The notes beneath the pieces were generated by a model. That model searched no databases. It was not told the DNA's origin and saw only the letters and a list, made by a program, of their open reading frames with translations. Position numbers and translations under genes: made by a program. A DNA stretch of 64,000 nt from Hysterangium stoloniferum (lineage: Eukaryota > Basidiomycota > Agaricomycetes > Hysterangiales > Hysterangiaceae): assembly GCA_015178975.1 (NCBI GenBank), contig WHVD01000115.1:62001-126000 (forward strand). The letters are read 5' to 3'. Every line of letters begins with the position of its first letter. Position 1 is the first letter of the stretch. This document shows positions 14,019 to 63,673 of this stretch, in pieces.

Positions 14019-15450
14019 ATGTACTGGCACATTACCCCACATTACCCCACCTCACTTATTACCCCCACCTCACTTATTACCCCCACCTCACTCATTACCC
14101 CTGTTACGACCGGAATTCCCGCTGGACTCCAGGCACTAACTTATATGCACCCACACCCTATACGCACCAATTGTCAGTTTACTGGAATTCCTGCCAGACT
14201 CCATACGTCAGACTTGTTCATGTTTGACATTCATTACTTCATGTATCAGCCACCAGAATACCCACCAGACTCTGTCCCTGTCTATCTCTGACCCTGTCCC
14301 ATGCATCAGTCACCAGACCCCACTCGGAAAACCCATCAGCCCTCAAACTGAGCCCCATTCCCATTATAGTCAAATGACCTGTCACAATTTGGACTCTGCT
14401 CCCACTCCATTCCCATTATGGTTTTATGACCTGTCACAATTCAGACTCCGCTCCATTCCATCCTGTTCCTAACACCACGTTTGGTGTTTATTTATCTCAT
14501 TTTATGTTTGGTAGTTTAGCTTTCATTATTACTGGATTTGGTACATTATTCATTCCACAGTCTATATAGTCTGGCAGATGTTGTATATACAATCCAGTGA
14601 GAAAATCAGCTTAGATTCTCCCCAGTAATCTTAGTATATTTTCCGCTCTAAATTCCTCTTTGAAACACACCACTTTTAATAGTCATGGGCTCCAACACAT
14701 CTATCACTCGACCTCTGACTTATCTATCTCGACTCCCCGACCTCTCAACCCACTCACCCCACCCGGACTCCCCAAGATTCCCATCCACCCATTGAAATTG
14801 GACAAGACAATCTCATGAGGGTGCAGCCTATAAGCTGAAGCCAAGACCTACCGGCTTTCCCACAGGTTTCTCCAGAAACCCTCCATGTACACACCTTAAC
14901 AACTCCCACCTCACTCATTACCCCACCTCACTCATTACCCCACCTCACTCATTCACTCATTACCCCACCTCACTCATTACCCCCACCTCACTCATTACCC
15001 CACCTCACTCATTACCCCCACCTCACTCATTACCCCACCTCACTCATTACCCCCACCTCACTCATTACCCCCACCTCACTCATTACCCCCACCTCACTCA
15101 TTACACCCACCTCACTCATTACCCCCACCTCACTCATTACCCACCTCACTCATTACCCCACCTCACTCATTACCCCCACCTCACTCATTACCCCACCTCA
15201 CTCATTACCCCCACCTCACTCATTACCCCACCTCACTCATTACCCCACCTCACTCATTACCCCCACCTCACTCATTACCCCACCTCACTCATTACCCCCA
15301 CCTCACTCATTACCTCACTCATTACCCACCTCACTCATTACCCCCACCTCACTCATTACCACCTCACTCATTACCCCACCTCACTCATTACCCCCACCTC
15401 ACTCATTACCCCACCTCACTCATTACCCCACCTCACTCATTACCCCCACC
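14019..15450. repeat. 18-bp minisatellite, split by a solo LTR
   Basis: Tandem copies of roughly CACCTCACTCATTACCCC (units of 16-19 bp) occupy 14030-14101 and 14902-15450, about 30 copies in the right block. The unit number varies by C-run length, as expected for slippage. The 14102-14901 LTR interrupts the array. Confidence 0.9.
14102..14901 (+). repeat. Solo gypsy LTR inserted in the minisatellite, CpG-poor
   Basis: An 800-bp block begins TGTTACGACCGG and ends ACACCTTAACA. Flanks are ACCCC (14097-14101) and ACTCC (14902-14906), a TSD with one C/T difference. Compared with 12229-13040 most CpG sites have become TpG or CpA, so it is an older copy. Confidence 0.8.
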
Positions 15451-15539
15451 TTGTCTAGCTATCCACTGGCCCTGGACCCCCCATATTGGACATTTATCTT
15501 CTCTGAAGCTTACCTCAACTCTTCAGGAAATATGAAAGG

Positions 15540-17215
15540 AATGGTGAGCTCCTACCTATTATTAATTATTTTTTGCTTTTTTAATGATTAAATAATTTAT
15601 TTGTAGTCAAATTACCCTTTCCTGGGTGTTGCTCTCATTCTAATTTTGAAATACACTGTCTGAAGGCTACCCTATAATCCCAGGTATGTTTTGGGCTTTC
15701 TCATGCTGTTTTAAATTATTTATGCATTATCTTTCACATTTTTGGGCTATTTTAGACCCATTTGTCTGAATTTCTTTTCCCGGGACTCTCCACTGCTTTT
15801 TTGAGTCCTTTCTGTGAGTGTTAGGACCAGAAAACCTGCCAGGCTCTGGACTCCATCCTATATGCACCCAACTCTCTATATTGTACCCAGGGTACAGTTA
15901 CAACTGGAGTACCTGCCGGGACCCGCATGTCACCTTATACACACCAGTCCTCAGACTCCACTGGACCTGCATATCAACCTGTCTATATCTGACACTGTGT
16001 CTCATGCACCAGTCCTTGGACTCTGCCAGACCTGCACAACAACCTGTTTATACCCGACTCTCTGTGCCCATCACTGGACTCTGACCAGACTCCTGAGAAC
16101 CCCTCTAACAGAGTCCCGTTCCTGTTATGGTCTAATGACCTGTCATGATTTGTTCTCCACTTCCATTCCATCCCATCCCGAATTCCAGTTTAGTATTTAC
16201 TTGTTTTGTTTTATGTTTAATTGTTCTGCCCCTCATCATTACCATATTTGGTATTATTACATTTCAAAGTCTATATACATACATAAGTCTCCCATACTCA
16301 TGTACTTAGAATCCAGTTCAAATCTTGAACTAGTTACACCCTGAATACATCCTGATCCAGTCTCGACTCCTCTTTTCTGCCTGCATGCTTGATTCCTGGA
16401 ACTCCCATGGGAACTCCGGAATCTACATCTTCCTTGTAGGTGTTCTGTCAGCTCAAAATATGGACACCTGAATGAGTGTACGAGGGTGCAGCACATAAGC
16501 TAAAGTCAAGTCCATCTCTCAGCAGTACTTCTGGTAATTATTCTGAATAACTCCTTGTACTAATCCCCAGAAACTCCCCAGACCTATCACCCAGGGACTC
16601 CATGGGACATTCCCAGAAGAGGTGTTCGGAATAATTACTGGAAACCTCCATGGGACTTCCTTGGAACTTATCAGTTTTCGGAACTTAACAGTGAGTATAA
16701 GTGGAGTATTAAGGTGAGTCCTGTCCCTGTAATTAACCTTACCTTTTTCTGCTCAAAAATTATTCATACAGTGAAATTGACCCTCTCTTCTGTGGCCTTT
16801 TGCCTTGGTTGTTGTTTCTATTCTTGCTGGAAGATATAACATACCTCCAGGTTAGTATTGGCCCTTCCCTCATGCTGTTGAAAATTATTTATGCATTATT
16901 TTAGCATTTTTGGGCTATTTTAGACCCATTTGTCTGAATTCCTTTTCCCACTCTCTGCTGCTTATGTGACTGCTCCCTATAAGTATAAGTAGAGTATTGA
17001 AAATGAGTCCTTTCCCTATAATTAGTTTCACCATTTTTTACTTAGACATAATTCATACAGTTAAAATTGACCTCCCATTCTGTGGCTTTTGGCTGTATGG
17101 CTATGTCTATTATTACCCCTGTGAGATACAAAATACCTCCAAGTTAGTATTGATACCTTCTGTGATGCTGTTAAAACTTTTTCATGATTTTATTTTCACA
17201 TTTTTGACCTACTTT
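15540..17215 (+). repeat. ~290-bp tandem units with intron-like signals, split by a solo LTR
   Basis: Three units share CATGCTGTT followed by AAATTATTTATGCATTAT and TTTGGGCTATTTTAGACCC, near 15700, 16874 and (diverged) 17162. Each unit carries splice-like pairs in the same order: GTGAGT .. ATACAG or TTGTAG, then an ~80-nt block, then GTATGT or GTTAGT .. TATTTTAG. This looks like tandem duplication of an exon-intron module. No conserved protein could be read through the modules. They lie immediately upstream, same strand, of the antisense frame at 17318-17620. Confidence 0.5.
15819..16690 (+). repeat. Solo LTR with perfect 5-bp TSD
   Basis: An 872-bp block begins TGTTAGGACCAG and ends GGAACTTAACA, flanked by GTGAG at 15814-15818 and 16691-16695. 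Related to the other gypsy LTRs by GGACTCC repeats and the GAGGGTGCAGCACATAAGC block, but a diverged family. Confidence 0.85.
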
Positions 17216-17317
17216 GGAGAAAACAGAAACTGTGGGACTATCAGAACATGCTGGAGCATCAGAATTTCAACCTAGCATATGGGAGGTGTGCAATCTTCAT
17301 GATGAGAATCTTGGGAA

Positions 17318-17620
17318 GTGATGGAACTCAATAACCAGATCCAGGTTAAGGGTTTTAGAGCAATGGATCAAAACTTCTGGAAACAGAATGAGATTGAAAA
17401 GGTGATTATCAGTATTGGTGTTATGGTGGTAACTGAAAAATATGGATGGGAAGAGCTGGGAGGAGAAGGTTCCAGGTCGGAAAATGGTGTTGTCATGGAG
17501 CTTGAGGAAAGGATGGAGTTTCAGAGGAAGCTGGACAATAATGATGAGGTTCAGAAGGAGATGGAAGTTGTAGCAGAGTGGCTGAAATTCAGAGAAGTGG
17601 TGACTTTGAAGGAAAATTGA
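17318..17620 (+). CDS. Antisense passenger frame of the old chromovirus, C-terminal part
   Basis: An open frame of 100 codons, opposite in strand to the retroelement, lies between its chromodomain end (17819) and the tandem units. Residues GFRAMDQNFWKQNEI align with GIEAQNELLWKSNKV in the third exon of the antisense gene at 54585-55563. Farther on, SRSENGVVMELEE aligns with ARSDEDGVAAEVAEL. It is coiled-coil-like and acidic. The cysteine cluster of the homologue is not recognisable upstream. It stays open although the surrounding pol region is riddled with stops. Function unknown. Confidence 0.5.
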   Translation: MMELNNQIQVKGFRAMDQNFWKQNEIEKVIISIGVMVVTEKYGWEELGGEGSRSENGVVMELEERMEFQRKLDNNDEVQKEMEVVAEWLKFREVVTLKEN

Positions 17621-17818
17621 AATTAATTGAATAATCTTGACTTGCAAAATTATGGGCATTAACTTGTAAGATTCTGTAAAACAAAAAGATATGACAGATG
17701 GGTGAAAATGTTGGAATGTCAGAGGTTAAAGTGATGATAAAGTTCTGGGTTTACTAAGGTAAGCATTGTGGAAGTGGAGTACAATTTCCATAGTGTGACT
17801 AAGCTCCATAGCCAATAT

Positions 17819-20800
17819 CTAGGAAGTTTCCTCATTGGTACCTTCATAGGCTGCCCATTTGACCAGATAAGGCAGTTTACAAGTGTGATGGTGATTGTCA
17901 ATCTTGGAATCTAAAATCTTGGAAACTTCAAATTTGGGTTCTCCATCAATAAAGACTGGAGGCAGAGGTTGAATACATTCCAGGATAGTGTTAGGAACAC
18001 AAGGTTCCAACATGGAAATGTGGAAAATGGGGTGGACTGCTTGCATATTATTGGGAAGTTGGAGGGTCCAAGACAGTGAGCCAGCTTGTGCTGTAATCTT
18101 GAAAGGGCCTAGGAACTTTTCAGCAAGTTGTTTTGAGGGTTGGGTGGTTCAGAAGAATTGAGCTTTCACAAAAGCATGGTCTCCAATCTTGAAGTTAGGA
18201 GGTGTGATTCTGTGTTTATCTGCAGAATGTTGATAAAGTTCCTGAGTGGAAAAAATGGCTTTCCAAAGTTTCTGATGTAACTTGCCAAGATCTGTAGTGA
18301 ATTCCTGAGCATGAGTGGACACCAGGTCTTGTTCAGAGTGGATAGCAAGATTAGGGTTATAGCCTTTGTTGGCAAAGAAAGGAAGGTTTTGGAGGTGCCA
18401 GTGGTGGCATTCAGGGAGTTGTTGTATGTGAATTCTGTGAGTGGAAGAAGAGATTTCCAGTTGTCCTATTGATAATTGCAATAGATGTGGAGATATTGTT
18501 CCAGTGTTTGGTTGACATGTTCCATTTGTCTGTCACCCTCTGGGTGATATCTGGAGATGAAGTGTAACTTCATGTCGAGAGCTTTTCCAAGCAATTTGAA
18601 AGAGTGGGAACTGAACTCAGAACCTTAGTCAGAAGTGACATGTGCAAGAACACCATGTTTGGAAAATAGATGAATAACAAATAGTTCTGCTAATTGCAAG
18701 GACATGATAGTATTATGAGTGGGTATGAAAATTTCTTGTTTTGAAAATCAGTCCACAACAGCAAGGATGGATGTATAGCCTTCAGAAGATGGAAGTTGTT
18801 CAATGAAATCCATAGAGATTGAATTCCAGGGATTTTCCAGAATCAGAAGTTGCTTGAGAAGGCCATACAGCTTATGTCACTGTGCTTAAGAGTGTAAGCA
18901 AGTGGGACAGGATTTACAGTACTGAGTGATGAAATCTCAGAGATTGACCAAGTATATTCCTGTCAGATGAATTTGAGGGTCTTGTTAATGCCAGAATGTC
19001 CAAAGATAAGATGATTGTGCTTGTACTGAAGTACATATGTGGAATATAGATATGTCCATGGAGTCAGATAAAACCTTGAGAGTCTTGAGACCAATGTGGT
19101 TGTTTGGGATCTTCAGGAACATCCAGGTGAGGTTTCAGAGATCAGAAGATGTGCCAATAGGATTTCTTGATGTAGTTTTTTCAATGTCCATGATTATAAC
19201 ACTGTGGAGGATGGGATAGATGAGGTGGGTAGCTCAGATTGATGAGGACAGTTGCTGAGTTGAAAAAACCAGTTTAAAATTGTGTGGGATTATGACAGCA
19301 TAGTTGCTTTCCCCCTCTTTAAGAGTAGACATCCCATCATCAAGTCATGGCATCTGGTTTTCCACCAAGATGTCTTGGCTGTAAATGGATAATCATATTA
19401 AAAGTGGAGAGACACTCAGACCAGCAGGCTTGCTGGCAGGTCAGAAGTTTAGTGGTCAAAAAATATTCTAGGTTCTTGTGGTCAGTAATGATATCAATCA
19501 GAAATCCAGAACCTTTGAGGTAGTGCCACCAATGCTTGAAGGCCTCAAAAATTGCCAGAGGTTCCTTGTCATGAACATCATAATTGAGCTTGGAAACTGA
19601 AAGTGTCTGGGAAAGGAATTCAACTGGGTGAATTTCTCCATCAGAATCCCAGATAGAGAGAATAGTGGCAATTGCATAGTCAGAAGCATTGGTTTCTATA
19701 ATTATTGGAACATTGAGTTTCCAATGAGACAAGATAGGAGTGGAAGTGAAGGCATCCTTCCAGGTTTGAAAAGCAGAGTGACATTTGTAATCAAAAACCC
19801 ATGGAGTCGTTTTGTGGGTAAGATGAGTGAGAGGTATCATAATATCCAAATAGTTCTGAATAAATTGACAGTAGAAATTTGTGAACCCTAGGAAAGATTT
19901 AATATCCTTGACTTTCTAGGATTCATGCCAATCACAGACAACTTGAACTTTGGTTTTGTCCATGCACAGGCCATCAGTCCTATAATAAAACCCAGGGATT
20001 CAATAGAATCCATATTGAAGGAATATTTTTCCCATTAGTGAAAAGACCATTCTTTCAGAGCCTTTGGAAAATCTCATGAATTTGTTCATTGTGAAGTGCA
20101 GGATTTTCAGAAAATACCAAAATGTCATTTAAATCAAATATAACACATACATCAAGCATGTCAGAAAATATATTATTAACAAAACATTGAAAAGTGGTGG
20201 GGGCATTGGTAAGGCCAAATGGCATTATCAACCATTCAAAAGGTCCATAGAGGTTACAAAAAGCAGTCTTCCACTCATTGCCTTCAGCAATTCAGACCAA
20301 GTGATAGGTGTGTTTAAGGTCTATCTTGGTATAAATTTGGGCTTTTTGAGGGACATTGAGTAAATCTGTGATGAGCAGGGGTGGATATTTATCTTTCCAT
20401 GTTAGGGAATTTAGGCCTCAGAAATCAACACAGAGGTGAAGAGTCCATCCTTCTTTTGGACAAAAAGGATGGGTGCTCCAAAAGGAGACTTGGAAGGGCA
20501 CATAAAACCTATTGACAAATGTTAATCCAGGAACTCTCAGATAGAGGAAAGTTCCAATTGGGACAATGGGTAAATATGTCCTAAGGGAGGGTTTGAACCA
20601 GGCTCAATATCAATTTTTAAATTGTAAGGCCTATGAGGTGCAAGCCAGTCAGCTTTTTGCTTACTGAAAATGTCCACAAAATTATGATATTTTTCAGGAA
20701 CCCCTTCCAGATTGGCATTTAGCTCAGATATTTCTGGAGTTGCAAAGTGTCAAGATGCTTCATCAGTTTGTAGACTAATTGAAAAACACTGAGAACTGTC

Positions 20801-21486
20801 CAATTTACTTGCCTGAAAAAATGCCACACCATTGATGAGGGAATCTTCAGAGGGTTGGAGGATTTCAGAGAAGCCAGAATTGCTATTGAGACTGAAGAGG
20901 CTTTGGCCAGAATAGATGCTGCAGGAACAGAAGTGTTGGGAATCTGGAAAGTTATACTGCCTAATACCCAGTCAATTAACAGATTGTGTTGGGTGAGCCA
21001 GTTGTATCCTATAATGACTGAACAGCTAGAGTCCAACTGTGTTATGAAGAATGTAACCATCTGAAATGTTCCACATGGAAACCAGATAGGCATGTTGCAA
21101 GCTTGAGTAAGAGCTGTATTGCTGGTCCCATCAAGCAAATGCAAGGAAATTGTGGGTACAGATCAGAGTTTCAGATTATGTGTCATAGCAAAAGTGGTAT
21201 CTACAAAACAGTGTATAGAGTCACAATCTATGAGAGCTCAGAACACTAAATTTCCAAGAAGGTCAGAATTGAGTTTTACAAATAATGAGTTGGGGTTGGA
21301 AAGAATGGAAGCATTGAGATGTATAATCTCCAAAACATGGAGGGAGTCAATGCAACCCTCTGTCCATGCTGAATCTGGAGGTGGCTTACTCTTATTTTTG
21401 ACTCTGTGGCAGGTTTCTCCCTTGATGTAGTTGCCATGGAGGTAGTTGCTGCATGAGCCTTGGAAGAGTTTTCCTTGATGGTGCAT
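17819..21486 (-). pseudogene. Pol of the old chromovirus (PR, RT, RNase H, integrase, chromodomain)
   Basis: Surviving blocks match the complete copy in order. They are: the post-protease segment VTFFITQLDSSCSVIIGYNWL (21144-20719), RT (about 20700-19850), the RT-RNase H join MIPLTHLTHKTTPWVFDY and RNase H with [16 protein letters not shown] (19849-19340), integrase pieces (about 19300-18500, and 18481-18149 with NFKIGDHAFVKAQFF), and the chromodomain KFEVSKILDSKID .. PYLVKWAAYEGTNEETS (18046-17819). Many stops and frameshifts. The chromodomain would have steered insertion to marked chromatin. Clearly dead. Confidence 0.75.
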
Positions 21487-21699
21487 TCAGAAACCTTATG
21501 TCAGCTTTTTCCACAGAATTGGCAGAGGTTGTTATCCATGTGTCATTTTTTTCCTTGGGTTTGAGCATTGGAACCAATAAATGGGATATGTCAGGTTTTT
21601 TGGAAGTTGACTATTTGCCCTTCAGACTTCTTGTTATTTTTCCAATTGGAATTTGATTTTCCAGAATTATTGCCAGAGCTATTGCCAGAAAACTTGCTA

Positions 21700-22071
21700 C
21701 TTGATACCTTTTTTGCCTTGAGTGTGTTCCATCAGATTTTCTCAGGAAATCTCGCACAGCATTCCCAACATCAGGGGTCAGATTTCTGAGCTTTCATCTG
21801 GATGAGTTGGAGAGTTTTCAGCTTCCCTGTTTGCAGATATTGTCTTTGAGGTGAGATGGAAGACCCAAATAGAAATGGTGTCTGAGAGTGGAATCATCCC
21901 AAACACAACACACAGCAAGAGTGTTGAGCTTGACAAGATATTTGGAAACCCATTGATTGTCCTTGAGTACCATAAGTTCATTTTCTGCATTGCTGGATTG
22001 ATCACAAGGTCCAAAGTTAGTTTCCAGTTCTTCAACAAATCCATCCCAATCATTGAGCCAATTGGGCATCT
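21700..22071 (-). pseudogene. Gag of the old chromovirus, inner part
   Basis: The minus strand reads WLNDWDGFVEELETNFGPCD and LRHHFYLGLPSHLKDNI, matching ENWEAFVEELETNFGPYD and LRHQFYAGLPSRLKDEV of the complete copy. A damaged knuckle (LCQFCGKS-stop-HKVSEC) lies near 21520. The upstream Gag part resumes beyond the copia insertion as KILCNIGSNP-type sequence at 24390-24480 and the start MGPKHKATKEPSQLQ at 24702. Confidence 0.7.
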
Positions 22072-43223: not shown

Positions 43224-44118
43224 ATCTCCACCCACCTTTTGGATTCTTAACCAATTTAAATCTTATAAGGATCCAATAGAGATTATTGGAGTTTATATAA
43301 GATAAGGCTCTACTATGGATCTTAAAAATCTTTTGGAGAGATGGGTTTTCCCAATGACAGTAGAAATTTCATTTTATTTCTTCACTTAGTCCCCATCATC
43401 ATGAGTTGAAAAAAATCCGCAAATCATTGTGTCCATGCTGCATATATATTCCCGCTGTGGTCCAATCGACACAATAGCCACAAAACACATTCAAAGGGCA
43501 GCCCTTGCATGCCATTGGATGACTGAAATATGCACTCACACTGCTTTTGCACTAATTTGCAAAATAGTATGATTTCATAATTAGCAAGGGATGTAGCACA
43601 ACACTGCAGAATCATGGACTACTATGTAGTAAAGCACACATACTTGTAAATAAACTGTGTTAGATTAGTAAAGTAAATATATTATACAAGACTATCATAA
43701 TGAGAAGTCGGGGTGGACCACTTCAAGCCTCCTGGTTCTGGTCCGGGCTTGATCCTCCCAGTATAACATGCATTACTGATTCAGCACTATATGACCCACA
43801 ATAATCTGATCTGTGGTGGGGCTCATCAGTTCCTTGTTAGAGTATGATATTACACCTCTTACATAGTCTATGATGTTCCCTGTATTTTTCTGATATTTGT
43901 AGTATTTTTCCCAGCACTGTAGGTGCAGTATTGAGTGAGTTACCTAGTAAGGTAACTGATGTGTAGGTGCTTAGGTAAGCACCCTGTAGCATACTCCGCT
44001 GTGGGTGTGGGAAAGTCTCCTTAGTGTTTACTTTCCTCACACTCACAGGGTGTTTGTCAAGAGTTATTCAACTGTTTCAACATTCCTTGTATCCTACAAA
44101 ACTCGGGCCCGACAGATT
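43224..44118. other. Intergenic between foldback and minisatellite
   Basis: AT-rich, no gene recognised. A stretch near 43960-43980 (CTTAGGTAAGCACC) resembles the interior of the TRIM at 50 kb (GTTAGGTAAGCACC). Confidence 0.3.
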
Positions 44119-44370
44119 ACTATAAGACAGTGTTGTATTACTATAAGACAGTGTTGTATTACTATAAGACAGTGTTGTATTACTATAAGACAGTGTTGTA
44201 TTACTATAAGACAGTGTTGTATTACTATAAGACAGTGTTGTATTACTATAAGACAGTGTTGTATTACTATAAGACAGTGTTGTATTACTATAAGACAGTG
44301 TTGTATTACTATAAGACAGTGTTGTATTACTATAAGACAGTGTTGTATTACTATAACACTATATGCTTAT
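44119..44370. repeat. 21-bp minisatellite, about 12 near-identical copies
   Basis: The unit TATTACTATAAGACAGTGTTG repeats about 12 times with hardly any change. Because 21 is divisible by three, the array keeps frames open (CITIRQC repeats), but this is not evidence for a gene. There are no spacers, so it is not a CRISPR. Confidence 0.95.
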
Positions 44371-45099: not shown

Positions 45100-46611
45100 T
45101 GGTACGACCAGAATTCCCACTGGACTCCAGGCACTAACTTATACACACCTGTCCCTGTCTATGTCTGATCTCATCCCACACATCAGTCACTGGACCCCAC
45201 TCGGAAAACCCGTCATCCCTCTAACTGAGCCCCATTCCTGTTTTAGTCAAATGACCTGTCACGATTCAGACTCCACTCCCACTCCATTTCCTGTTATGGT
45301 TTATGACCTGTCATGATTCAGACTCCACTCCATCACATTCCATTCCTAATACCAAATTTGGTGTTTACTTATCTCGTTTTATGTTTTGCTAGTTTCATTT
45401 TCATTATTACTGGATTTGGTATGTTATTCATTCCACAGTCTATACATATAGTCTGGCAGATGTTGTACATACAATCCAGTCAGAAAATCAGCTTAGATTC
45501 TCCCCAGTAATCTAGTACATTTTCTGCTCTAAACTCCTCTTTGAATTACACTGCTCTCACTAGTCATGGGCTTTGACACATCTATCTCTCAACCTCCAAC
45601 TTATCTTTCTCGACTCCCTGACCTCTCAACCCACGACCTCTGACCTACGACCCCTCGACCCATGAACTTCACCCAGACTCCCTGGGATTCCCATCCACCC
45701 ATTTGAAATTGGACAACACGATCTCGCGAGGGCACAACCTATAAGCTGGAGCCAAGTCCTACTGGATTTCCTGTGGGTTTCTCCGGAAACCTGCCGTGTA
45801 TGTACCCGTATGTCATCTATTTTATCACTTTGTTTCTTTATTTAACCTTTAAGGGACATTAGTCAAATAGTAGAGGACTTGATCCTTTAACTTTGGCTCA
45901 AGAGTTTAAGATGTCATTGTTCTGATAACATAAGATTCATTGCTAGCTCTAAACCCTAGAATTAGCATATCTTAACCCTAAGTAGCTAGGTGGCATTGCC
46001 ATGGAAACCAGCAGAGTCATGGATTATATACTAATAAGGTATCTCTGGCCCTTATAGTATGCAATCTACCCCATCTCCTTGACTACATATTGAGGGAGAT
46101 GACTCATTAGTGAGTCATATCAATATGACTATGCAATAAGTTATGATCAGAGCTATGACTCAGATACATAGTCATAGCTGGTTGGATGACTCTGAAATAC
46201 ACTTATGAGTCAAGTATGGGAAATACTGACTCATTCTCCTAGTCACATTACTTAGTAAGCAGGATCCTGGACTAGTATAAATACAGGCTCAAATCATGTA
46301 TTTAGAAAATAATTCAATATCACATCACTTGCTTGTTTAGCTACACTTGCCTACTAGGTCCATACATTGTGCTTAAGTTGAGTACTCTCCTTGCCAATCT
46401 GTTGACCGTCTTGTTTCCTTGAGTTGAGCTTTCTTCTCGGAAAAGGGACATGGGCACATAGTTGAATAAAAGTGGATACTGATTTAATTGACAAAACTCC
46501 TACATACAGATTAATTTGAATTTGAATCTCCTTTCTCAAGCTACACTACTTAACTCAATTAAAAAGAGTTTACAAGTATGCTAAATAGTAATAATACATT
46601 ACACCTTAACA
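45100..46611 (+). repeat. Solo gypsy LTR inserted in copia integrase, itself split
   Basis: It starts TGGTACGACCAG and ends CACCTTAACA. The TSD TCAAG is at 45095-45099 and 46612-46616. The native LTR is 45100-45810 plus 46609-46611; the rest is a second LTR-like insertion (45811-46603). It belongs to the CpG-depleted version of the LTR family at 53536-54374. Confidence 0.8.
45811..46603 (+). repeat. LTR-like insertion inside the gypsy LTR
   Basis: A 793-bp block begins TGTCATCTATTTTATC and ends ATACATTACA, with near-TSD CCGTA (45806-45810) and CCTTA (46604-46608). It has a TATA-like TAGTATAAATACAGG near 46275. Its family is unknown, possibly copia. Confidence 0.6.
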
Positions 46612-53221: not shown

Positions 53222-53535
53222 TTACAGCTGTTTGCATTATGTAAGGCACGCGCTTGTATTAGTTTTTGCAGAACGCGTCCCAACTTGCGAACACGATATC
53301 TCCACGAATACACCACCAAATCACATAAAGACTAGATAGTTTGTCTTGTAATTAAATATACTAGTGCTTTCCAATATTACTTTCAAAAAATTCTCCTCAC
53401 ATAACATTTGTCTTTATGCTAGTGTACATGCAGCTCACAAACTCATTTGCAGGCTGTACAATGGACTGTAGAACCTGAACTTGTAATATAGTGTTTATAT
53501 AATATATATCTAGTGTTACCAACCTTCCCCCTTTT

Positions 53536-54374
53536 TGTTAGGATACACACACAGGCCGGGTTTCCGGAGAAACCCGCGGGATATCTGGTAGGACTTGGCT
53601 TCAGCTTATAGGCTGCGCCCTCGCTAGATTGTGTTGTCCAATTTCAAATGGACGGACGGGGATCCCGGGGAGTCCGGGCGGGGTTCATGGGTCGTAGGTC
53701 GTAAGTCGGAGGTCGTGGGTCGTAGGTTGGGGGTTGTGGGTCGTGAGTCGAGTTTGGTTGAGAGAGGTAGATGCACCGGAGCCCGTGGGCTCCGACTAGT
53801 GCGAGCGATGTGAATCGAGTAAGGTTTTAGAGTGGAAAATATTATTAGATTACTGGGGGGAATCTAAGCTAATTTTCTGACTGGATTGTATGTACAACAT
53901 CTGCCAGTTTATATAGACCGTGGAATGCATGACATACCAAATCCAGTAATAACAAAATGAAACTAACAAAACATGAAACGGGAATAGTAAACACCAAATT
54001 GGTGTTAGGAACGGAATGGAACGGAGTGGAGTCCAAATTGTGACAAAGCATAACCCATAACGGGAAATGGAGCGGGAGCGGAGTCCTAAATCGTGACAGG
54101 TCATTTGACTAAAACGGGAATGGGGCTCAATTAGAGCGGTGACGGGATTCTAAGCGGGGACTGGTGACTGATGCGTGGGACGAAGACGGACATAGACAGA
54201 GATGGAGTCCGGGGGAAGTCCGGTGACTGATGTGTCGTAATGAGGTCGAACGTAACGAGTCTTGACGTGACGGAGTCCGGGCGGGAAATCCTATAAACAG
54301 ACGATTGGTGCTTGTAGCGTGTGGGGGTGTACAGGTTGGTGCCCGGAGTCCAGCGGGATTGTCTGGTCGTAACA
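53536..54374 (-). repeat. 3' LTR of the chromovirus
   Basis: An 839-bp LTR matching 60825-61664. Over the first ~275 bp I count about 12 differences, roughly nine of them CpG versus TpG/CpA. Confidence 0.95.
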
Positions 54375-54524
54375 GTATCCTCCCTTTATGCCGAAGTCCC
54401 AAAGAGGCTCTAGACCTACATAAGGTTCTTGTCGGCTATGCGCATGTGTCAAAAGTCATGTCGGTTACATGTATGTGTCAAAGAGTCATGTGATCTGGAA
54501 GGTAAGGTTCAAACGCGGCGAGCC

Positions 54525-54534
54525 TATATAAAAA
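54525..54534 (+). promoter_or_regulatory. TATA box of the antisense cargo gene
   Basis: TATATAAAAA lies 60 bp before the ATG at 54585, outside the LTR, followed by a pyrimidine-rich leader (TTTCTTCTTCTTTATTACCC). It points in the antisense direction of the element. Confidence 0.6.
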
Positions 54535-54584
54535 TTTGAAAAAATAGAAATTTCTTCTTCTTTATTACCCCCATCTTCGCAAAA

Positions 54585-55563
54585 ATGGGACCAAAACCAA
54601 CGCCCAGAAAAGCCATGCCAGCCGCGGGGCCCTCCATGGGCACCCCATATCGGGCGCCTTGGAGTGCCACGCAACTGTTAGCGCGGCATGAAGAGCAGCG
54701 CCGATTACGAGAGGAAGCAGAGAGGGAGGCCAGGGAGGCTGAGGAGGCCCTGGACCAAGAGTACCAGGCGGCATTGGCCGCAGAGGAAGAGGTGGCGAGG
54801 GAGAGGGAGCGTGAAGTGGAGGAGGCTGTGCGAGTGGCTGCGGAGAGTGCCCAGGTGGCTGTGGAGAAAGCCCGGTTGGCTGCAATTGCTGCGGGAAAGG
54901 TAAGTCCCAAAAACTTCAACTCGTCATTTTCCTTTTACTGACTTGTCATTTTCAGCGCAAGGCGACAGAGGTGGAGTCGGAGTCCAAGGGGGAGCCAGAG
55001 AGCCCCCAAAAGGTAAGCCTCAGGTCCGTGGGATAGCCGTGGAGACTAACCATAATCAACAGAAGGCAAGGAAGGCGGCGCCAGTCCGTCTTCCGATGCG
55101 GAACGAGCCGCGGTGTTCCGGTTGTAGCGACCGGAACACAGAGTGCAACCGAAAATCCGGCCAGGGTCCGGGCTGCTACCAATGTGCGCACCTCAAGGCG
55201 AGGTGCTCACTAGTACACGAGCAGGCCACGGGGTCCGGGGCGCGAGACATAAGCAGGTTGGACGGGTTGTCCGGGTTGGACGAAGTACTTGGACGGATCG
55301 CTGAGGGCATCGAGGCCCAAAACGAGTTGCTCTGGAAGAGCAACAAGGTCCAAATTGTGGTGGCAAAGGAGCTGTCCGGACTCCGTGAGGAGTTTTGGAA
55401 GTTCCTGGTGGAGCATGGCAGCTATGTCTATGAAGAGCTGCAGATCGGGAGTTCCGAGGATGCCAGGTCAGATGAGGATGGGGTTGCCGCGGAGGTTGCG
55501 GAGCTTCCTGGAGAGGTAGCTGAGGAGGCGGGGAAAAAACACAGTCCCATAAATATAGACTGA
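54585..55563 (+). CDS. Antisense cargo gene: coiled coil plus Zn2Cys6-like cluster, 3 exons
   Basis: Exons 54585-54899, 54956-55012 and 55063-55563 join in phase 0 to 290 residues. Intron 1 is GTAAGT..TTTCAG with CTGAC; intron 2 is GTAAGC..CAACAG with ACTAACC. Residues ~28-105 form a highly charged Glu/Arg/Ala coiled coil. Residues ~137-166 read CSGCSDRNTEC .. GCYQCAHLKARC, giving C-x2-C-x6-C-x9-C-x2-C-x6-C, the spacing of fungal binuclear zinc clusters that bind DNA. A second helical region (LDEVLGRIAEGIEAQNE) and an acidic tail follow. AATAAA at 55578-55583 is a likely poly(A) signal. The gene sits between integrase and 3' LTR, opposite to gag-pol, and has no stop codons. I infer a regulator or chromatin factor carried by the element; function unproven. 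Confidence 0.75.
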
Positions 55564-55774
55564 GAAAAGTAATATAGAATAAAATAATTTTGAATCATAA
55601 AAGTAAAGCGTGAAAGAAAAACATAAAAAATAAAAAGTCAAAGCCAAAGTCCGTGGGGAGTCCGCTTAAAGACTTGACAAGACATGTCAGAACCTGTAAA
55701 AGCAAAGAGAGACATAGGGCGACAGGGAAAAATGAAAATGAGTCCAAACATAAAACGGGGTCCGCGGAGTGCAG

Positions 55775-56899
55775 TCAGAGAGACGATAATGGTCCAGGTT
55801 TGAGTGGGTAAGCTGTATGAAAGTCAGTAACGATTTCCGTGGCATTACCGAGTTCCGTGGCCAAAATCCATGAGGTTTCTTCATCGGTGCCCTCGTAACC
55901 CGCCCACTTGACCAAGTAAAGCAGTTTACAAGTGCGTCGATGCTTGTCTATTTTTGAATCTAAAATCTGTGAGATTTCAAACTCGGGTTCTCCGTCAATG
56001 ACGACAGGAGGAGGTGGAGATTGCACGCGATCCGGGATAGTGTTAGCAGTACAAGGTTCAAGCATAGAAACATGAAATACCGGGTGTACTGCGCACATGC
56101 TATCCGGAAGCCGTAGAGTCCAAGAGACTGAACCTACTTGTGCAATAATTTCAAACTGGCCTAGATATTTTTCAGCAAGCTTCTTTGATGGATGGGTAGT
56201 CCTGAAGAATTGAGCTTTGACATAAACACGGTCGCCAATCTTGAAGTTGGGTGGCGGGATCTGGTGTTTGTCCGCTGAATGTTGATATTGCTCTTGGATG
56301 GACAGTATTGCAGTCCAAAGTCTCGTGGAGCTCGTGGAGGTCCGTGGTGAACTCTTGAGCACGAGCAGAGGCGAGATTTCGTTCTGGATGTACTGTAATA
56401 TTTGGATTATATCCTTTATTTGCAAAGAACGGGGAAATGCCAGTAGTGGCCGAGGGTGCATTGTTGTAAGCAAACTCTGCAAGTGGTAACAAGGTCTTCC
56501 AATTGTCCTGTTGGTAGTTGCAATATATGCGGAGGTATTGTTCCAATGTCTGGTTGACGTGTTCGGTTTGTCTGTCACCTTCCGGATGATGTCCGGGCAT
56601 GAAATGTAATGTCATGTCCAAGGATTTCCGAGGGATCTAAAGAAGTGAGACATGAACTCTGATCCTCTATTGGAAGTCACGTGGGACGGAACTCCGTGCT
56701 TGGAAAATATGTGGATAATGAAAAGTTCCGCTAACTGCACGGACGTAATTGTATCATAAGTAGGGATGAATATACCTTGTTTTGAGAATCTGTCAGCAAC
56801 GACTAGAATAGCAGAAAAGCCTTCGGAATCCAGTAGGTGTTCAATGAAATCCATAGATATAGAATTCCACGGGTGTTCCGGTACCGGGAGTTGTTTCAA
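55775..56899 (-). pseudogene. Integrase core and chromodomain of the chromovirus
   Basis: Minus-strand blocks: WNSISMDFIEHLL (first Asp), DRFSKQGIFIPTY, VTSNRGSEF where the second catalytic Asp is Asn, then [18 protein letters not shown] with the Glu. Frameshifts near 56630 and 56310 separate these from [15 protein letters not shown] and the chromodomain EFEISQILDSKID .. LYLVKWAGYEGTDEETSW. Chromodomains guide integration to methylated-histone chromatin. Asp-to-Asn plus frameshifts make it inactive. Confidence 0.85.
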
Positions 56900-57009
56900 A
56901 AGGCCGTATGGCTTGTGTCGCTGAGATTTCGAGTGGGGACAAGTAGTGCAAGATTTACAATAGTGCTTAACGAATCCACAGAGTCTGGGCCAAGTATATT
57001 CTCTTCTTA

Positions 57010-59658
57010 TTAATGATAGAGTTTTGTTGACCCGAAATGGCCTGAGAGTGGATGATCATGTTTGTATTGAAGGATCCTGAGGCGGAGGCCATCGGAGTCC
57101 GGTACATAGATACGATCGTCAAGTCTAATGAAACCATGTTGATCAAGAGACCACCGAGGTTGATCGGGGTCCACGGGATTGTCCAGATGAGCTTTAGTAA
57201 CTGGGTCTAGTGGAATTGCTGATAGAATATCTTGATGTAACTTCTCGATATCCATAATGATAATTCCATGGACAATGGGATTGACGAGGAAAGTTGCGCG
57301 GACCGATGCGGTAAGCTGTTGATTTGTGAAAATAGGTTTCAGGTTGTGCGGATTTACCGTTGCATAGTCGTTGCTCCCCTCTTTAGGATAGATGTCCCAT
57401 CGTCTAGTTAAAGCGTCGGGTTTGCCGCCGAGACGGCCAGGTCCAAAGCGGATAATCATGTTGAAGGCAGAGAGATATTCAGACAAGCGGGCCTACCGGC
57501 GGGTCAAGAGTTTTGTGGTAGAAAAGTATTCCAGGTTTTTGTGATCTGTTACAACGTCAATAGGAGCTCCTGAACCTTCCAAATAGTGTCACCACGCTTT
57601 GAAAGCTGAAAAGATTGCCAGAAGTTCTTTATCATGAACATCGTAGTTGAGCTCTGCTCCGGTAAAAGTCCGGGACAGAAAAGCCACGGGGTGGACTTCT
57701 CCGTCGGAGTCCTGGATAGAGAGAATGGCTCCAAGTGCATAGTCGGAGGTGTCCGTTTCAACAATAAGTGGGAAGTCCGGTTTCCAATGTGACAGAATAG
57801 GAGCTGTAGAAAAAGAATTTTTTAAAAGATTGAAAGCTTTTTGACACTAATCATTAAAATTCCACGGAGTACCCTTACGCGTAAGATGGGTAAGGGGTAC
57901 CGTGATGTCGGAATATCCACGGATAAAACGTCGGTAAAAATTGGCAAAGCCGAGGAAGGATTGTATATCTTTAACTTTTCGAGGTTCGGGCCAATCTTTG
58001 ATGACTTGCACTTTAGTTTCGTCCATGCGGAGTCCATCGGGTCCCAACATGAAACCTAGGTATTCCACAGAGTCCGTGTCAAAAGTACATTTTTTACCGT
58101 TTGCGAATAAACCATGTTGTCTGAGCCTCCGGAGAACTTCATGGACTTGTTTGTCGTGTTCCACGGGATTCTCGGAGTAGATAAGAATGTCATCCAAGTA
58201 AACAATGACGCATACATCGAGCATGTCGGAGAAAATGTCATTGATAAAATGCTGAAAAACAGACGGGGCATTGGTGAGTCCAAAAGGGATGACCAACCAC
58301 TCGAAGGCCCCATAACGGGTTCTAAAAGTGGTTTTCCATTCGTTGCCCACGGCAATCCAGACCAAATGATAGGCGTGCTTGAGATCTATTTTGGTGTAAA
58401 TCCGGGCATTCCGCGGGGCATCGAGCAGGTCAGATATAAGTGGGAGTGGATATTTGTCCTTTTTGGTGACGGCATTGAGTCCTCTAAAATCAACACATAG
58501 TCGAAGGGATCCATCCTTTTTTCTGACAAACAGAACAGGTGCTCCAAAAGGAGACTTTGAGGGTCAAATAAAACCTATGGACAAATGTTCATCCAGGAAA
58601 TCACGGATTGTGGATAATTCCGTGGACGAAAGCAGGTAAATATGTCCTAGGGGTGGCTGGGCGCCATCTTCAAGATCGATTTTTAAGTCGTATTCTCTGT
58701 GAGGCGGAAGCCGGTCAGCTTTTTGCTTGCTAAAAACATCCGCGAAGTCATGATATTTCTCCGGGACACCTTCTAGGTCAGTGGCTTGCTCAGATTTAGA
58801 TACCGGGGTTGAAAAACATCCAGTTGCTTCATCAATTTTTAAGTTGATAGTGAACGCCTGGGACCCATCCATTTTTGAAGCCCTAATAAAAGCTGCAGCA
58901 TTAATCAGAGAAATGGATGGAGGTGCCATGGGTTCCGGGGAAGCTGTAGGTGCTGTAGGGATCACAGGAGTCCTCGAGACTGCAGGTGCCGGGAAGGCCA
59001 TGGGTGCCGTGGAGGCCGAGACAGGCGCAGTTTCCTCAGTCGCCACGGGAGTCCGGAATGTTATACTGTTAGCTATCCAGTCAATCAACGGATTGTAGTG
59101 GGTAAGCCAGTTATGTCCTAGGACTACCGAGCAACTTGAGTCTAACTGGGTCACATAGAAAGTGACCAATTGAGATGTTCCACAAGGGAAATTGATGGGT
59201 AAATCACAAGCTTGGGTAACAACCGAATTACTTGTGCCATCGAAGAGGTGGAGTGCGACGGGATTTATTGAATAAGTTGACAAAGAATTTTTTTGCGTGA
59301 ATTTTGTATCTAAAAAACAATGAGTCGAGCCGGAATCTATAAGAGCTGAAAAAACGAATTTCGGAATCATATTAGACATAAGTTTAACGAAAAATGAATC
59401 AGAATGTGAAAGAGCGGATGTGTTGAGGCGAGTAAACTCTTGAATGCGCAGAGAGGCAATGCAACCCCTAACCCGTGTGGAGTCCGCGGGGTTGCTCACT
59501 CTTTTGTCGAATCGGCAGCCAGTTTGTCCTTCGACAGGGTTTCCGTGGAGGCTTTGGCTGTTCGACCCTTTGAAGATTTTGCTTTTGCCAGCAGACATTC
59601 CGGGACTCGATGACCGGGTTTCCCGCACAAGAGACAGAGGTTGTTGTCCATACGACAT
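57010..59658 (-). pseudogene. Protease, reverse transcriptase, RNase H and integrase N-terminus
   Basis: Protease FSALIDSGSTHCFLD keeps its catalytic DSG. RT shows [40 protein letters not shown] and the catalytic [12 protein letters not shown]. RNase H shows DHKNLEYF. The integrase zinc region is KHDHPLSGHFG .. CKSCTTC. Stops: TGA 58564-58566 (Arg expected), TAG 57847-57849 (Trp), TGA 57589-57591 (Trp), TAG 57493-57495 (Gln), and a frameshift near 57040. The protease frame overlaps the end of gag, suggesting -1 frameshifting. The domain order is that of Ty3/gypsy. Confidence 0.9.
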
Positions 59659-60788
59659 TGTCTTTCTTGTGGAGTCAATTTGCCATTGGGTCCGAGTTTG
59701 CCTGAGAGGTCGGGTTTTCCGGCTTGCTTGCCGGACTGTTGACCCTTGTTGTTGTCCTTATTGTCCTTATTGTTGTTGTTGTTATTTGAAGACTTTTTAT
59801 CGTTCTTCTTGTCGCATTGCGTGGAGTTCTGGTTGCTGGTTGACGAATTGTTGTTATTGTTTTTGTCCTTGGACTTATTTACTTTGTCCGCGGACGTCTC
59901 GCGGGCAACTTCCGCACAACGTTCCCAATAACGTGCATCCGCGTTTTGAGCTTTGAGGCGCATACGGGACAGGGTTTTTGGCTTGCCATCTTCTCCTTTC
60001 GAGACTTCGTCTTTAAGGCGGGATGGCAGACCGGCGTAGAATTGGTGGCGGAGAGCGGGATCGCCCCACTGACAACGAGCTGCAAGATTATTGAATTGGA
60101 CGATGTAGTCCGTGATGCACTGCATGTCCTTCATATGAAGATTTGTGAGACTATTCTCTGCTTCTCCTGTCGGGTCATATGGGCCAAAGTTGGTTTCAAG
60201 CTCCTCAACAAAAGCCTCCCAATTTTCAAGCCAGAGTGGCTCTTCCTCGGAAATCCTGCTAAAAGCCGGTTCGAACCATTTCAACACAGATCCCGACAAA
60301 TATGACAGTGTGTAGTTGACTTTTCGGAAGTCCGTGGAGAATGCAGCGGCACGATCATGGAAGTTGAAGTGACATTGCATGAGGAAAGTAGAGAGTTTGT
60401 TTGGGTTGGAACCCGTGAAGGGTTCCGGAGCATTGACCTTTGACCGTGGAGGTTCTTGTTCCTTTTTCTTTCGTTCTTCGAGCAGGTGCATCATGAATTT
60501 ATCTATGGTTCCTGCTAAAAATTCAGAAGTCGGATCCCCCTATTGTGGTCGTTGAACAGGTGGAGGGTGTTTGAGAGGGATTTCGACACCTTTGCCCTTG
60601 TCGGGGGCCACGGAATCGTCCTCATGCTCGGATTCGTCCAGGTTTTCCAGGACTTCTTCGATACGGGCTTCTTCCATGGGTTCCGACTGGTTCGCAAGCG
60701 TCTGACTGGTATACAGAGTTAACGGGGAATGAAGAGTCGACGGTCCAGGTATTGATGACTGTGCGCGTGTACTTCTTCTTGGTGGCAT
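59496..60788 (-). pseudogene. Gag of the chromovirus, one stop codon
   Basis: From ATG 60788, 37 bp inside the 5' LTR, the frame reads MPPRRSTRAQSSIPGPST to a TAG at 60540-60542 (Q-stop-G; CAG likely ancestral). It then stays open as GDPTSEFLAGTIDK .. to 59496. The Gag core (LSYLSGSVLKWFEPAF, FVEELETNFGPYD, LRHQFYAGLPSRLKD) is followed by an Asn/Lys-rich linker and the knuckle CLLCGKPGHRVPEC. It would form virus-like particles. One base change separates it from a complete frame. Confidence 0.85.
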
Positions 60789-60824
60789 AATGAAAACAAT
60801 CTGCGAGTATTAGTCAGAAAATAC

Positions 60825-61664
60825 TGTTAGGATACACACACAGGCCGGGTTTCCGGAGAAACCCGCGGGATATCCGGTAGGACTTGGCTTCAGCTTATAG
60901 GCTGCACCCTCGCTAGATTGTGTTGTCCAATTTCAAACGGACGGAGAGGGATCCCGGGGAGTCCGGGCGGGGTTCGTGGGTCGTAGGTCGTAAGTCAGAG
61001 GTCGTGGGTCGTAGGTCGGGGGTCGTGGGTCGTGAGTCGAGTTTGGTTGAGAGAGGTAGATGCGCCGGAGCCCATGGGCTCCTACTAGTGCGAGCGATGT
61101 GAATCGAGTAAGGTTTTAGAGTGGAAAATATTATTAGATTACTGGGGGGAATCTAAGCTAATTTTCTGACTGGATTGTATGTACAACATCTGCCAGTTTA
61201 TATAGACCGTGGAATGCATGACATACCAAATCCAGTAATAACAAAACGAAACTAACAAACATGAAAAGGGAATAGTAAACACCAAATTGGTGTTAGGAAC
61301 GGAATGGAACGGAGCGGAGTCCGAATCGTGACAAAGCATAACCCATAACGGGAAACAGAGCGGGAGTGGAGTCCTAAATCGTGACAGGTCATTTGACTAA
61401 AATGGGAACGGGGCTCAATTAGAGTGGTGACGGGATTCTAAGCGGGGACCGGTGACTGATGCGTGGGACAAAGACGGACATAAACAGAGACGGAGTCCAG
61501 GGGAAGTCCGGTGACTGATATGTGTTGTAATGAGGTCGAATGTAATGAGTCTTGACGTGACGGAGTCCGGGCAGGAAATCCTATAAACAGACGATTGGTG
61601 CTTGTAGCGCGTGGGGGCGTACGGGTTGGTGCCCGGAGTCCGGCAGGATTGTCCGGTCGTAACA
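60825..61664 (-). repeat. 5' LTR of the chromovirus
   Basis: An 840-bp LTR, the slightly more CpG-rich partner of 53536-54374. It directly abuts TSD CTTTT at 61665-61669. Confidence 0.95.
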
Positions 61665-62068
61665 CTTTTACTGACTGTCCCGTGGAATGTGTAAAGTCAA
61701 GTTGACCATGTTTTGGCACCTCCTCCAGGTGAACTCATTTATACAGGAACCACTGGCCGATCTACCTCTCCTGTGGAGCATGTTGTAGCTAATATGTGTA
61801 TTTAGTGCCTAATGTACATTTTTTGTGACAGATGTGATCCCAGCATGCCCAGCAATGTTCCCGCCCTGCCTGGGAAATGGATCACTCAAGAGTAAGCTGA
61901 GACCTGTAGATATATCAGAAGGAAATGATATAAAACAGTCATTAAATGTAAATACCATGTGGGAGAACATTTGAGATACTATAATCAGATGCCAAAGTCT
62001 CCCACTGCACTCCTATGGGCACCGGTCATCCATCCACTCTTACACAACTCCCGCACTCTCAAAGTGCA

Positions 62069-62440
62069 TCAAAAGTGTCTTAACGATACATGTAGTATTT
62101 CTGCATGCCTTTGAGTTGGAGATAAAGCACTGTATGATGTCATTGTCAGTGAGAATGAAAGAATGACAACAAAATGAGGAACATAGCACCAGTTCCACCT
62201 GCAGAAGTTGTAGTAGCTGAATATGTAGCAGGGAATCACTCGCCCATGCATGAGGAACAGCTCATAATAAAATTTTCCTGCCCAATGGAAACCCAGTAGT
62301 GGCCAATCAGCTGGCCGGATAGGAATGTGACAAAAGGCTCGTTCAAGATCCAGGGAATAATATGCAATAGGGCGATTACAAACAGTTGGCTCTTTCTTTT
62401 GCGTTATCCATTGCTGGCTGTCTGTTCTCATGTTTTGCAT
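62069..62440 (-). pseudogene. Reverse-transcriptase fragment, left arm
   Basis: The frame contains YYSLDLERAFCHIPIRPADW then PLLGFHWAGKFYYELFLMHG. This matches the fingers/palm region of retrotransposon RTs (D-x-x-x-A-F/Y-x-x-I-x-V/I-x-P-x-D-W). The D-W-PLLG style is typical of DIRS/Ngaro-type tyrosine-recombinase elements. The catalytic YxDD region is absent. Only a fragment; it is mirrored at 62660-62962. Confidence 0.55.
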
Positions 62441-62659
62441 AAACGTTTCCTCAATGCTACAACGATTTTCATGCCATTACTTTATCAATGCTCATCTCTT
62501 CCCCCCTCAAGGGAATCCCCCACTATGCCCCAACTCTGATCCCCATGTCAATGCATGTCCAGATGATGCCTCTACCCTGCCCCATGTATCTTCTACCCTC
62601 AACGGAGATGCATCGGCCTTTTTCTTGGCAGGTTATCTGGACCAACCGTTTGTAATCGC

Positions 62660-62962
62660 CCTATTGCATATTATTCCCTGGATCTTGAACGAGCCTTTTG
62701 TCACATTCCTATCCGGCCAGCTGATTGGCCACTACTGGGTTTCCATTGGGCAGGAAAATTTTATTATGAGCTGTTCCTCATGCATGGGCGAGTGATTCCC
62801 TGCTACATATTCAGCTACTACAACTTCTGCAGGTGGAACTGGTGCTATGTTCCTCATTTTGTTGTCATTCTTTCATTCTCACTGACAATGACATCATACA
62901 GTGCTTTATCTCCAACTCAAAGGCATGCAGAAATACTACATGTATCGTTAAGACACTTTTGA
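62660..62962 (+). pseudogene. Reverse-transcriptase fragment, right arm
   Basis: The inverted twin of 62069-62440 reads the same LDLERAFCHIPIRPADW and HGRVIPCYIFSYYNF on the plus strand. Near-identity of the arms implies either a recent inverted duplication or gene conversion between arms. Confidence 0.55.
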
Positions 62963-63673
62963 TGCACTTTGAGAGTGCGGGAGTTGTGTAAGAGTGGATG
63001 GATGACCGGTGCCCATAGGAGTGCAGTGGGAGACTTTGGCATCTGATTATAGTATCTCAAATGTTCTCCCACATGGTATTTACATTTAATGACTGTTTTA
63101 TATCATTTCCTTCTGATATATCTACAGGTCTCAGCTTACTCTTGAGTGATCCATTTCCCAGGCAGGGCGGGAACATTGCTGGGCATGCTGGGATCACATC
63201 TGTCACAAAAAATGTACATTAGGCACTAAATACACATATTAGCTACAACATGCTCCACAGGAGAGGTAGATCGGCCAGTGGTTCCTGTATAAATGAGTTC
63301 ACCTGGAGGAGGTGCCAAAACATGGTCAACTTGACTTTACACATTCCACGGGACAGTCAGTAAAAGGGGGAAGGTTGGTAACACTAGATATATATTATAT
63401 AAACACTATATTACAAGTTCAGGTTCTACAGTCCAGTACAGCCTGCAAATGAGTTCGTGAGCTGCATGTACACTAGCATAAAGACAAATGTTATGTGAGG
63501 AAAATTTTTTGAAAGTAATATTGGAAAGCACTAGTATATTTAATTACAAGACAAACTATCTAGTCTTTATGTGATTTGGTGGTGTATTCGTGGAGATATC
63601 GTGTTCGCAAGTTGGGACACGTTCTGCAAAAACTAATACAAGTGTGCGCCTTACGTAATGCAAACAGCTGTAA

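Follow-up and report, generated by a model that had tools for sequence, protein, structure and literature searches.

A conserved antisense gene in a multicopy chromovirus of Hysterangium stoloniferum and its possible role in element regulation

We examined a window of 64,000 nucleotides from Hysterangium stoloniferum, a truffle-like basidiomycete of the class Agaricomycetes and the order Hysterangiales (contig WHVD01000115.1, positions 62,001 to 126,000 of the forward strand; assembly GCA_015178975.1), in which a long terminal repeat (LTR) retrotransposon carries an additional gene. The gene sits inside the element, antisense to gag-pol, between the integrase-chromodomain region and the 3' LTR. 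A first-pass annotation had proposed a three-exon antisense gene with two phase-0 introns at this place. When the gene was rebuilt from the sequence of the plus strand, exactly the same model was obtained, with three exons spanning 54585-55563 and a product of 290 amino acids. The features of the gene and of its upstream region, in window positions, are listed here.

54375-54584, plus strand: conserved promoter-like block and 5' leader, from aligned copies
54444-54461, plus strand: first direct repeat, ATGTGTCAAAAGTCATGT, from the alignment; mostly deleted in copy L034
54473-54491, plus strand: second direct repeat, ATGTGTCAAAGAGTCATGT, from the alignment
54525-54531, plus strand: TATA box, TATATAA, about 60 bp before the ATG
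54585-54899, plus strand: exon 1, with the ATG at 54585; residues 1-105, charged and coiled-coil-like by eye
54900-54955, plus strand: intron 1, 56 nt, GT..AG, branch-like CTGAC, phase 0
54956-55012, plus strand: exon 2, residues 106-124; with its flanks, by eye, like a bipartite nuclear localization signal (NLS), KRK...KKARK
55013-55062, plus strand: intron 2, 50 nt, GT..AG, branch-like CTAAC/CTGAC, phase 0
55063-55563 including the stop, plus strand: exon 3, residues 125-290, with the six-cysteine cluster, a helix-like stretch, an acidic tail and a conserved SPIN(V/I)(D/N) end
55114-55206, plus strand: six-cysteine cluster CX2CX6CX9CX2CX6C, cysteines at residues 142, 145, 152, 162, 165 and 172
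55578-55583, plus strand: AATAAA, a possible poly(A) signal read from the sequence; not retained as such in all copies

Conservation of the model was examined in 46 aligned copies, the window copy and 45 fetched ones, many of which are near-identical and thus do not count as 46 independent witnesses. Of these copies, 44, 44, 45 and 46 preserve the respective splice dinucleotides of the two introns, and 45 preserve the ATG; among the exceptions, the one in L046 reflects a shift in the alignment. No copy has lost any of the six cysteine codons (46/46). Among 21 copies, exon lengths differ by multiples of three, with L036, L041, L045, L046 and L054 as exceptions, and the introns, where retained, vary also by non-multiples of three (48-60 and 47-50 nt). 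In the window copy the antisense gene is still open, while pol is broken into several frames. Many other copies of the gene have decayed. The signals that had been named for the gene fared unevenly: the TATA box at 54525-54531 lies within a conserved promoter-like block, but AATAAA, although present in the window, is not kept in all copies and is the weakest item of the model, since few positions downstream of the stop are conserved (15 invariant columns out of 77 in 11 copies).

It had also been reasoned that the introns survive retrotransposition by being antisense to the element RNA. This argument is sound, as the introns can persist in the element because its genomic RNA is antisense to them, and no precise intron loss was seen among the copies examined. 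L036 does lack intron 1, but it was rejected as proof of splicing since the deletion also takes exon 1 sequence.

Next, the ratio of nonsynonymous to synonymous divergence (dN/dS) was calculated by pairwise Nei-Gojobori counts without a tree, over pairs that are not independent of one another and leaving out every codon with a gap or a stop. A ratio near 1 across copies had been named as a result that would speak against the gene. The ratio was instead far below 1 in diverged copies, at 0.15-0.33 for pairs with dS above 0.38 (12 copies). The pair L014 and L042, for example, differs at 43, 40 and 120 sites at codon positions 1, 2 and 3. With 11 copies, exons 1 and 3 each had a median dN/dS of 0.19 in the proposed frame. 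The values for the other frames were 0.95-2.13, apart from 0.35 and 0.26 in the frame of the opposite strand whose third positions coincide with those of the gene. Less diverged pairs showed higher ratios (0.20-0.52, with 0.52 for the closest pair, L014-L046), as expected if decay after insertion adds to constraint during spread. The same counts for pol gave 0.11-0.24 for reverse transcriptase (RT), 0.21-0.62 for the SH3-chromodomain and 0.03-1.53 for a short integrase piece, where dS is small. Judged by these codon counts, the antisense gene is under coding selection.

The element around the gene was delimited by its LTRs and pol domains, as listed here.

53531-53535 and 61665-61669, no strand: left and right copies of the 5-bp target duplication CTTTT, from the flank sequences and the empty-site copy
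53536-54374, minus strand: 3' LTR (TGTTA...TAACA), about 95% identical to 60825-61664
55775-56611, minus strand: integrase C-terminal SH3-like domain and chromodomain (PF24626, PF00385)
56612-57055, minus strand: integrase zinc-binding domain and part of the core (PF17921; PF00665 below cut-off); the frame is broken here
57847-58563, minus strand: RT (PF00078)
58564-59757, minus strand: part of pol containing the protease (PF08284)
59496-60539, minus strand: gag (PF03732, PF16297)
60825-61664, minus strand: 5' LTR, from the LTR comparison

RT, integrase, a chromodomain in pol, LTRs and a 5-bp target duplication place this element among the Ty3/Gypsy chromoviruses, although the match to the integrase core (PF00665, 27 bits) is under its cut-off of 32.6 bits. 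The proposal that a chromovirus carries the gene was thus borne out, with the chromodomain and pol domains on the strand opposite to it. The flanks of the element are repeated in inverted orientation at 62642-63673, with a single CTTTT and no element. Since CTTTT is found on both sides of the element and only once in this element-free copy of its flanks, the gene arrived with the element. The inverted repeats pair 61665-62389 with 62642-63366 (99.9% over 725 bp) and 53222-53535 with 63362-63673 (97% over 314 bp). The element-free copy represents a genuine inverted duplication or else sequence of a second haplotype that was incorporated into the assembly. By eye, the stretch adjoining the 5' LTR at 60810-60824, which reads GTATTTTCTGACTAA in the sense of the element, is similar to AATTTTCTGACT, found on the opposite strand within the LTR at 53870-53882, a likeness of the kind seen in Tf1-like self-priming.

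The gene is not confined to this window. The protein from the window and two exon 3 proteins of divergent copies served as queries against the whole 111.1-Mb Hysterangium stoloniferum assembly, and at least 271 distinct gene places were found, leaving out matches to exon 1 alone. In addition, 147 chromodomain matches were listed, and removal of 8 that were second fragments of listed copies left 139 places. At a distance of 138-251 bp on the 3' side, at least 102 of these places have a match to the gene; every one of the 102 is antisense to the chromodomain, and 0 share its strand. The remaining 37 of the 139 have no gene match among the matches listed; elements lacking the gene were considered on this basis, but they are not established, as the comparison covers only the gene matches listed. 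Pol domains lie beside the gene on the opposite strand in all 41 distinct copies that were fetched. The SH3-chromodomain is 198-242 bp from the gene on that strand in 39 of them, and in the other two (L034 and L042) pol is again antisense to the gene, but its domains lie at a greater distance or are incomplete. An LTR match was found about 180-300 bp upstream of the gene in 18 of 20 longer loci, and the two without it, L044 and L048, are both damaged in that region. Exact 5-bp target duplications flank 5 of 9 other two-LTR copies examined, besides the window copy. The copies examined are therefore associated with LTR elements, an association whose absence had been named as grounds for dropping the idea. 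The location between pol and the 3' LTR, the opposite strand, and the presence and conservation of the gene in most copies of the family (at least 102 of the 139 listed chromodomain places, with low dN/dS) are the features of the genes known as aORF-3R. We conclude that this is almost certainly a selected antisense gene belonging to the element.

Other related elements occur in the window. A second, related chromovirus lies at about 17-22 kb (17300-22000), with pol 71-73% identical over most aligned pieces, and no homologue of the antisense gene was found in it by tblastn or inspection of open reading frames (ORFs). LTR-like stretches of related elements at 12231-13040, 14101-14889 and 45149-45807 have no copy of the gene nearby by tblastn and are probably solo LTRs. 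The window also contains a long low-complexity stretch at 14839-15588, whose plus-strand frames read as repeats rich in Thr, His, Pro and Leu, and a tandem repeat at 44116-44356 with offsets stepping by 21 bp.

The region between the 3' LTR and the ATG is conserved. In 12 loci, the block at 54375-54584 diverges from the window by 2-11%, compared to about a third for third codon positions and intron interiors. The mean pairwise difference from 54505 to the ATG is 0.11-0.13 in 11 divergent copies; the corresponding means in the same copies are 0.36 for third codon positions, 0.31-0.36 for intron interiors and 0.27 after the stop. The stretch from the LTR to the ATG is alike across 20 aligned rows, except that the row of L048 lacks its LTR side. 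The two direct repeats are 18-19 bp long and are kept in most rows with few changes (one or two in some), and their exact cores, TGTGTCAAA and AGTCATGT, occur in the window's element only at the two repeat sites. The repeats, the TATA box and a pyrimidine-rich leader follow each other as expected of a promoter for the antisense gene, and we describe the block as promoter-like on this reading of the sequence. The few bases adjoining the LTR may be the polypurine tract.

Between lineages, the gene differs more in protein than the adjoining pol (55775-57055), and its silent sites and introns diverge several-fold more than the silent sites of pol. When the window copy is compared with L041, fourfold sites differ at 33 of 82 positions in the gene (transversions 0.21) and intron interiors at 15 of 42, versus fourfold-site differences of 15 of 105 in the SH3-chromodomain (transversions 0.02) and 6 of 60 in the integrase (0.00). 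The near-identical pair L014-L043 shows no such excess (gene 0/149, SH3-chromodomain 2/135, integrase 0/74). CpG decay was ruled out as the sole cause of the high silent divergence of the gene because transversions show the same excess. Another possible cause, exchange of modules between elements, was not shown: gene and pol trees of 15 copies agree at depth where supported, which favours a difference in rate or constraint on the silent sites of pol. At a shallow level the trees conflict, as L037 pairs with L050 in the gene tree and with L047 in the pol tree.

By eye, the predicted protein begins with a long, charged, coiled-coil-like N-terminus, followed by the KRK...KKARK stretch that resembles a bipartite NLS and by the six cysteines; a helix-like stretch and an acidic tail complete it. 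The six cysteines show the spacing pattern of the Zn2Cys6 domain (PF00172), CX2CX6CX5-12CX2CX6-8C. The Pfam Zn_clus profile matches 7 of 10 exon 3 copies at E values up to 1, with one aligned stretch per copy. In L053, L054 and L042, exon 3 residues 37-50 or 37-53 align to profile positions 2-15 or 2-16; in the other matching copies, residues 14-31 align to positions 16-32. These weak alignments suggest that the two three-cysteine halves are in the order opposite to that of the profile, rather than in the canonical one. A test string with the halves exchanged gave a single aligned stretch of only 15.3 bits. The half-swapped Zn2Cys6 cluster is, therefore, a lead and not proof.

The following mechanism would best account for these findings. 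An antisense promoter just inside the 3' LTR, in the internal region, would drive transcription opposite to gag-pol, and removal of both introns from the antisense RNA would give the mRNA. The product would most probably be a nuclear protein. From the N-terminus onward it would comprise a coiled coil, a basic stretch, a six-cysteine zinc cluster, a second helix and an acidic tail, a layout that resembles a small transcription regulator. It would enter the nucleus and act in trans on the element's own transcription. The simplest candidate sites are the conserved direct repeats upstream of the gene's own TATA box, and possibly the LTR too. We regard this whole chain, in which an accessory gene of a multicopy Ty3/Gypsy chromovirus encodes a nuclear regulator of element transcription, as an even call. 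A more specific form of it is doubtful: an operator-regulator module like phage immunity, in which a half-swapped Zn2Cys6 protein would bind the two repeats of its own promoter and control copy number, with lineages carrying anciently diverged, non-cross-reacting versions over a much more uniform pol.

Several observations weigh against a nuclear regulator of transcription. The cluster had been described as Zn2Cys6-like and its spacing agrees, but, besides the swapped order of its halves, none of the 10 exon 3 copies scanned passes the Pfam cut-off, the best being L053 with 20.9 versus 21 bits. The cluster alone has no match to solved structures, and weak matches of the helix stretch to talin with an exon 3 profile (E about 0.1) were taken as chance. 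A structure model of exon 3, made with one homologue, was uninformative (mean predicted local distance difference test score of 39). The first cysteine half lacks the basic residues usual in DNA recognition by Zn2Cys6 proteins, and thus the cluster may bind RNA or protein. As for the proposed sites, L034 is without most of the first direct repeat, and the conserved block may act for the sense genomic RNA rather than for the antisense gene. Protein searches matched only P0001 and P0002, both from Hysterangium stoloniferum, of which P0002 maps to the assembly at 99% over residues 65-201, and IMG/VR gave none; these searches require shared 5-residue words, so that distant relatives in other fungi could escape, and the first of them scored only the 8000 candidates that shared most words. 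With no homologue found beyond Hysterangium stoloniferum in these searches, function cannot be transferred from a relative.

Another possible explanation, unlikely but of some weight, is that the selected protein acts after transcription by binding element nucleic acid or integrase. It would then help in packaging, bring the pre-integration complex into the nucleus or, together with the chromodomain, choose where integration takes place. A basic stretch and a cysteine cluster suit nucleic-acid binding, the gene adjoins the integrase-chromodomain, and its dN/dS is in the range of those of RT (0.11-0.24) and the SH3-chromodomain (0.21-0.62). The product of an antisense gene with introns and a promoter-like block of its own, however, would be produced separately from gag-pol, as fits a regulator better than a virion component; no integrase-binding feature was found either, although no search was directed at one. 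It is improbable that the protein is aimed at the host, either countering silencing of the element or shifting host gene expression in its favour. The gene does differ more than pol between diverged copies, in protein and at silent sites, as conflict genes may, but dN/dS is low throughout the diverged pairs and the silent sites show the excess too; no link with a silencing pathway was found, although none was searched for.

The antisense RNA itself could be the useful product, pairing with gag-pol RNA or colliding with sense transcription to damp the element, with the coding frame secondary. The predicted transcript overlaps the sense RNA by about 1 kb, and the available text of one paper discusses antisense transcripts of other elements and a possible role in silencing (PMC7264820). 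A frame-specific dN/dS of about 0.19 and the conservation of the cysteines in 46 of 46 copies require a protein, however, which makes this explanation improbable. The element could also have picked up a host gene and carry it as a neutral passenger, or the ORF could be due to chance; both ideas are nearly excluded. Many copies have decayed and no homologue was found outside Hysterangium stoloniferum in the word-based searches, as a passenger or chance ORF would allow, but the at least 271 places, the frame-specific constraint between diverged copies, and the conserved splice sites and promoter-like block all argue to the contrary.

Among fungal elements, the closest likeness is to Boty of Botrytis, whose host is an ascomycete. 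The Hysterangium element is in a basidiomycete, and brtn, the extra gene of Boty, is known here by description only (PMC7264820, PMC8365987, PMC4227169). In the portions of the sources available, brtn is antisense and lies between pol and the 3' LTR (PMC7264820), and a Boty-like element has gag-pol with a chromodomain plus the brtn gene (PMC4227169). Both are thus fungal LTR elements with a chromodomain in gag-pol and an antisense gene between pol and the 3' LTR. Antisense additional ORFs are also described, in the same partial texts, for gene23 of the plant element Grande and for RIRE2 and Retand (PMC7264820, PMC11963269). The product of Grande gene23 is reported to be nuclear and the gene to be transcribed from its own promoter (PMC7264820), which is a precedent for the mechanism proposed here and a trait of aORF-3R to which the conserved TATA box and upstream block of the Hysterangium element may correspond, as far as sequence can tell. 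The antisense ORFs of Retand carry TRP28, which is predicted to bind DNA and was proposed to regulate transposition (PMC11963269); the available text of that paper contains "intron" 0 times and "splic" 2 times. These three, in contrast to the Hysterangium element, are plant elements, and Retand is a non-chromovirus. The TRP28 domain (PF04195) had no match in Pfam scans of the window element and the exon 3 copies.

Other likenesses are found outside retrotransposons. The fungal Zn2Cys6 transcription factors (PF00172) share six fitting cysteines, a helix-like stretch after the cluster and an acidic tail with the predicted protein, which differs from them in that none of the 10 copies scanned reaches the Pfam cut-off and its halves match the profile in swapped order. 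Such a swap of the cysteine halves, if real, would give a very common domain of fungal transcription factors an unusual architecture. HBZ of human T-cell leukemia virus type 1 (HTLV-1) is a basic leucine zipper (bZIP) protein. Like the Hysterangium gene, it is an antisense gene of an LTR retroelement, and, in the available parts of two papers, its product is nuclear and takes part in control of the element (PMC11963269, PMC7264820). Unlike HBZ, with its promoter in the 3' LTR, the Hysterangium gene has a cysteine cluster and a promoter-like block in the internal region.

Antisense accessory genes at the 3' position are, in the partial texts consulted, already known from plants and one fungal element. 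Earlier lists of such genes in LTR retrotransposons cover plants and one fungal group and assign them no function. By word search, a survey of fungal LTR elements contains neither "antisense" nor "intron" in its available text (PMC3248453), and among the titles and abstract openings listed in a literature search none concerned a basidiomycete element whose antisense gene has introns or encodes a zinc cluster. What appears new, within that same search, is the combination of introns, a zinc-like cluster, a basidiomycete chromovirus, hundreds of copies and a conserved promoter-like block. In the Hysterangium family, the sequence itself shows coding selection, conserved splice sites and a compact, conserved promoter-like block that contains repeated sites. 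This offers a concrete protein and concrete DNA sites with which self-regulation of a chromovirus can be examined.
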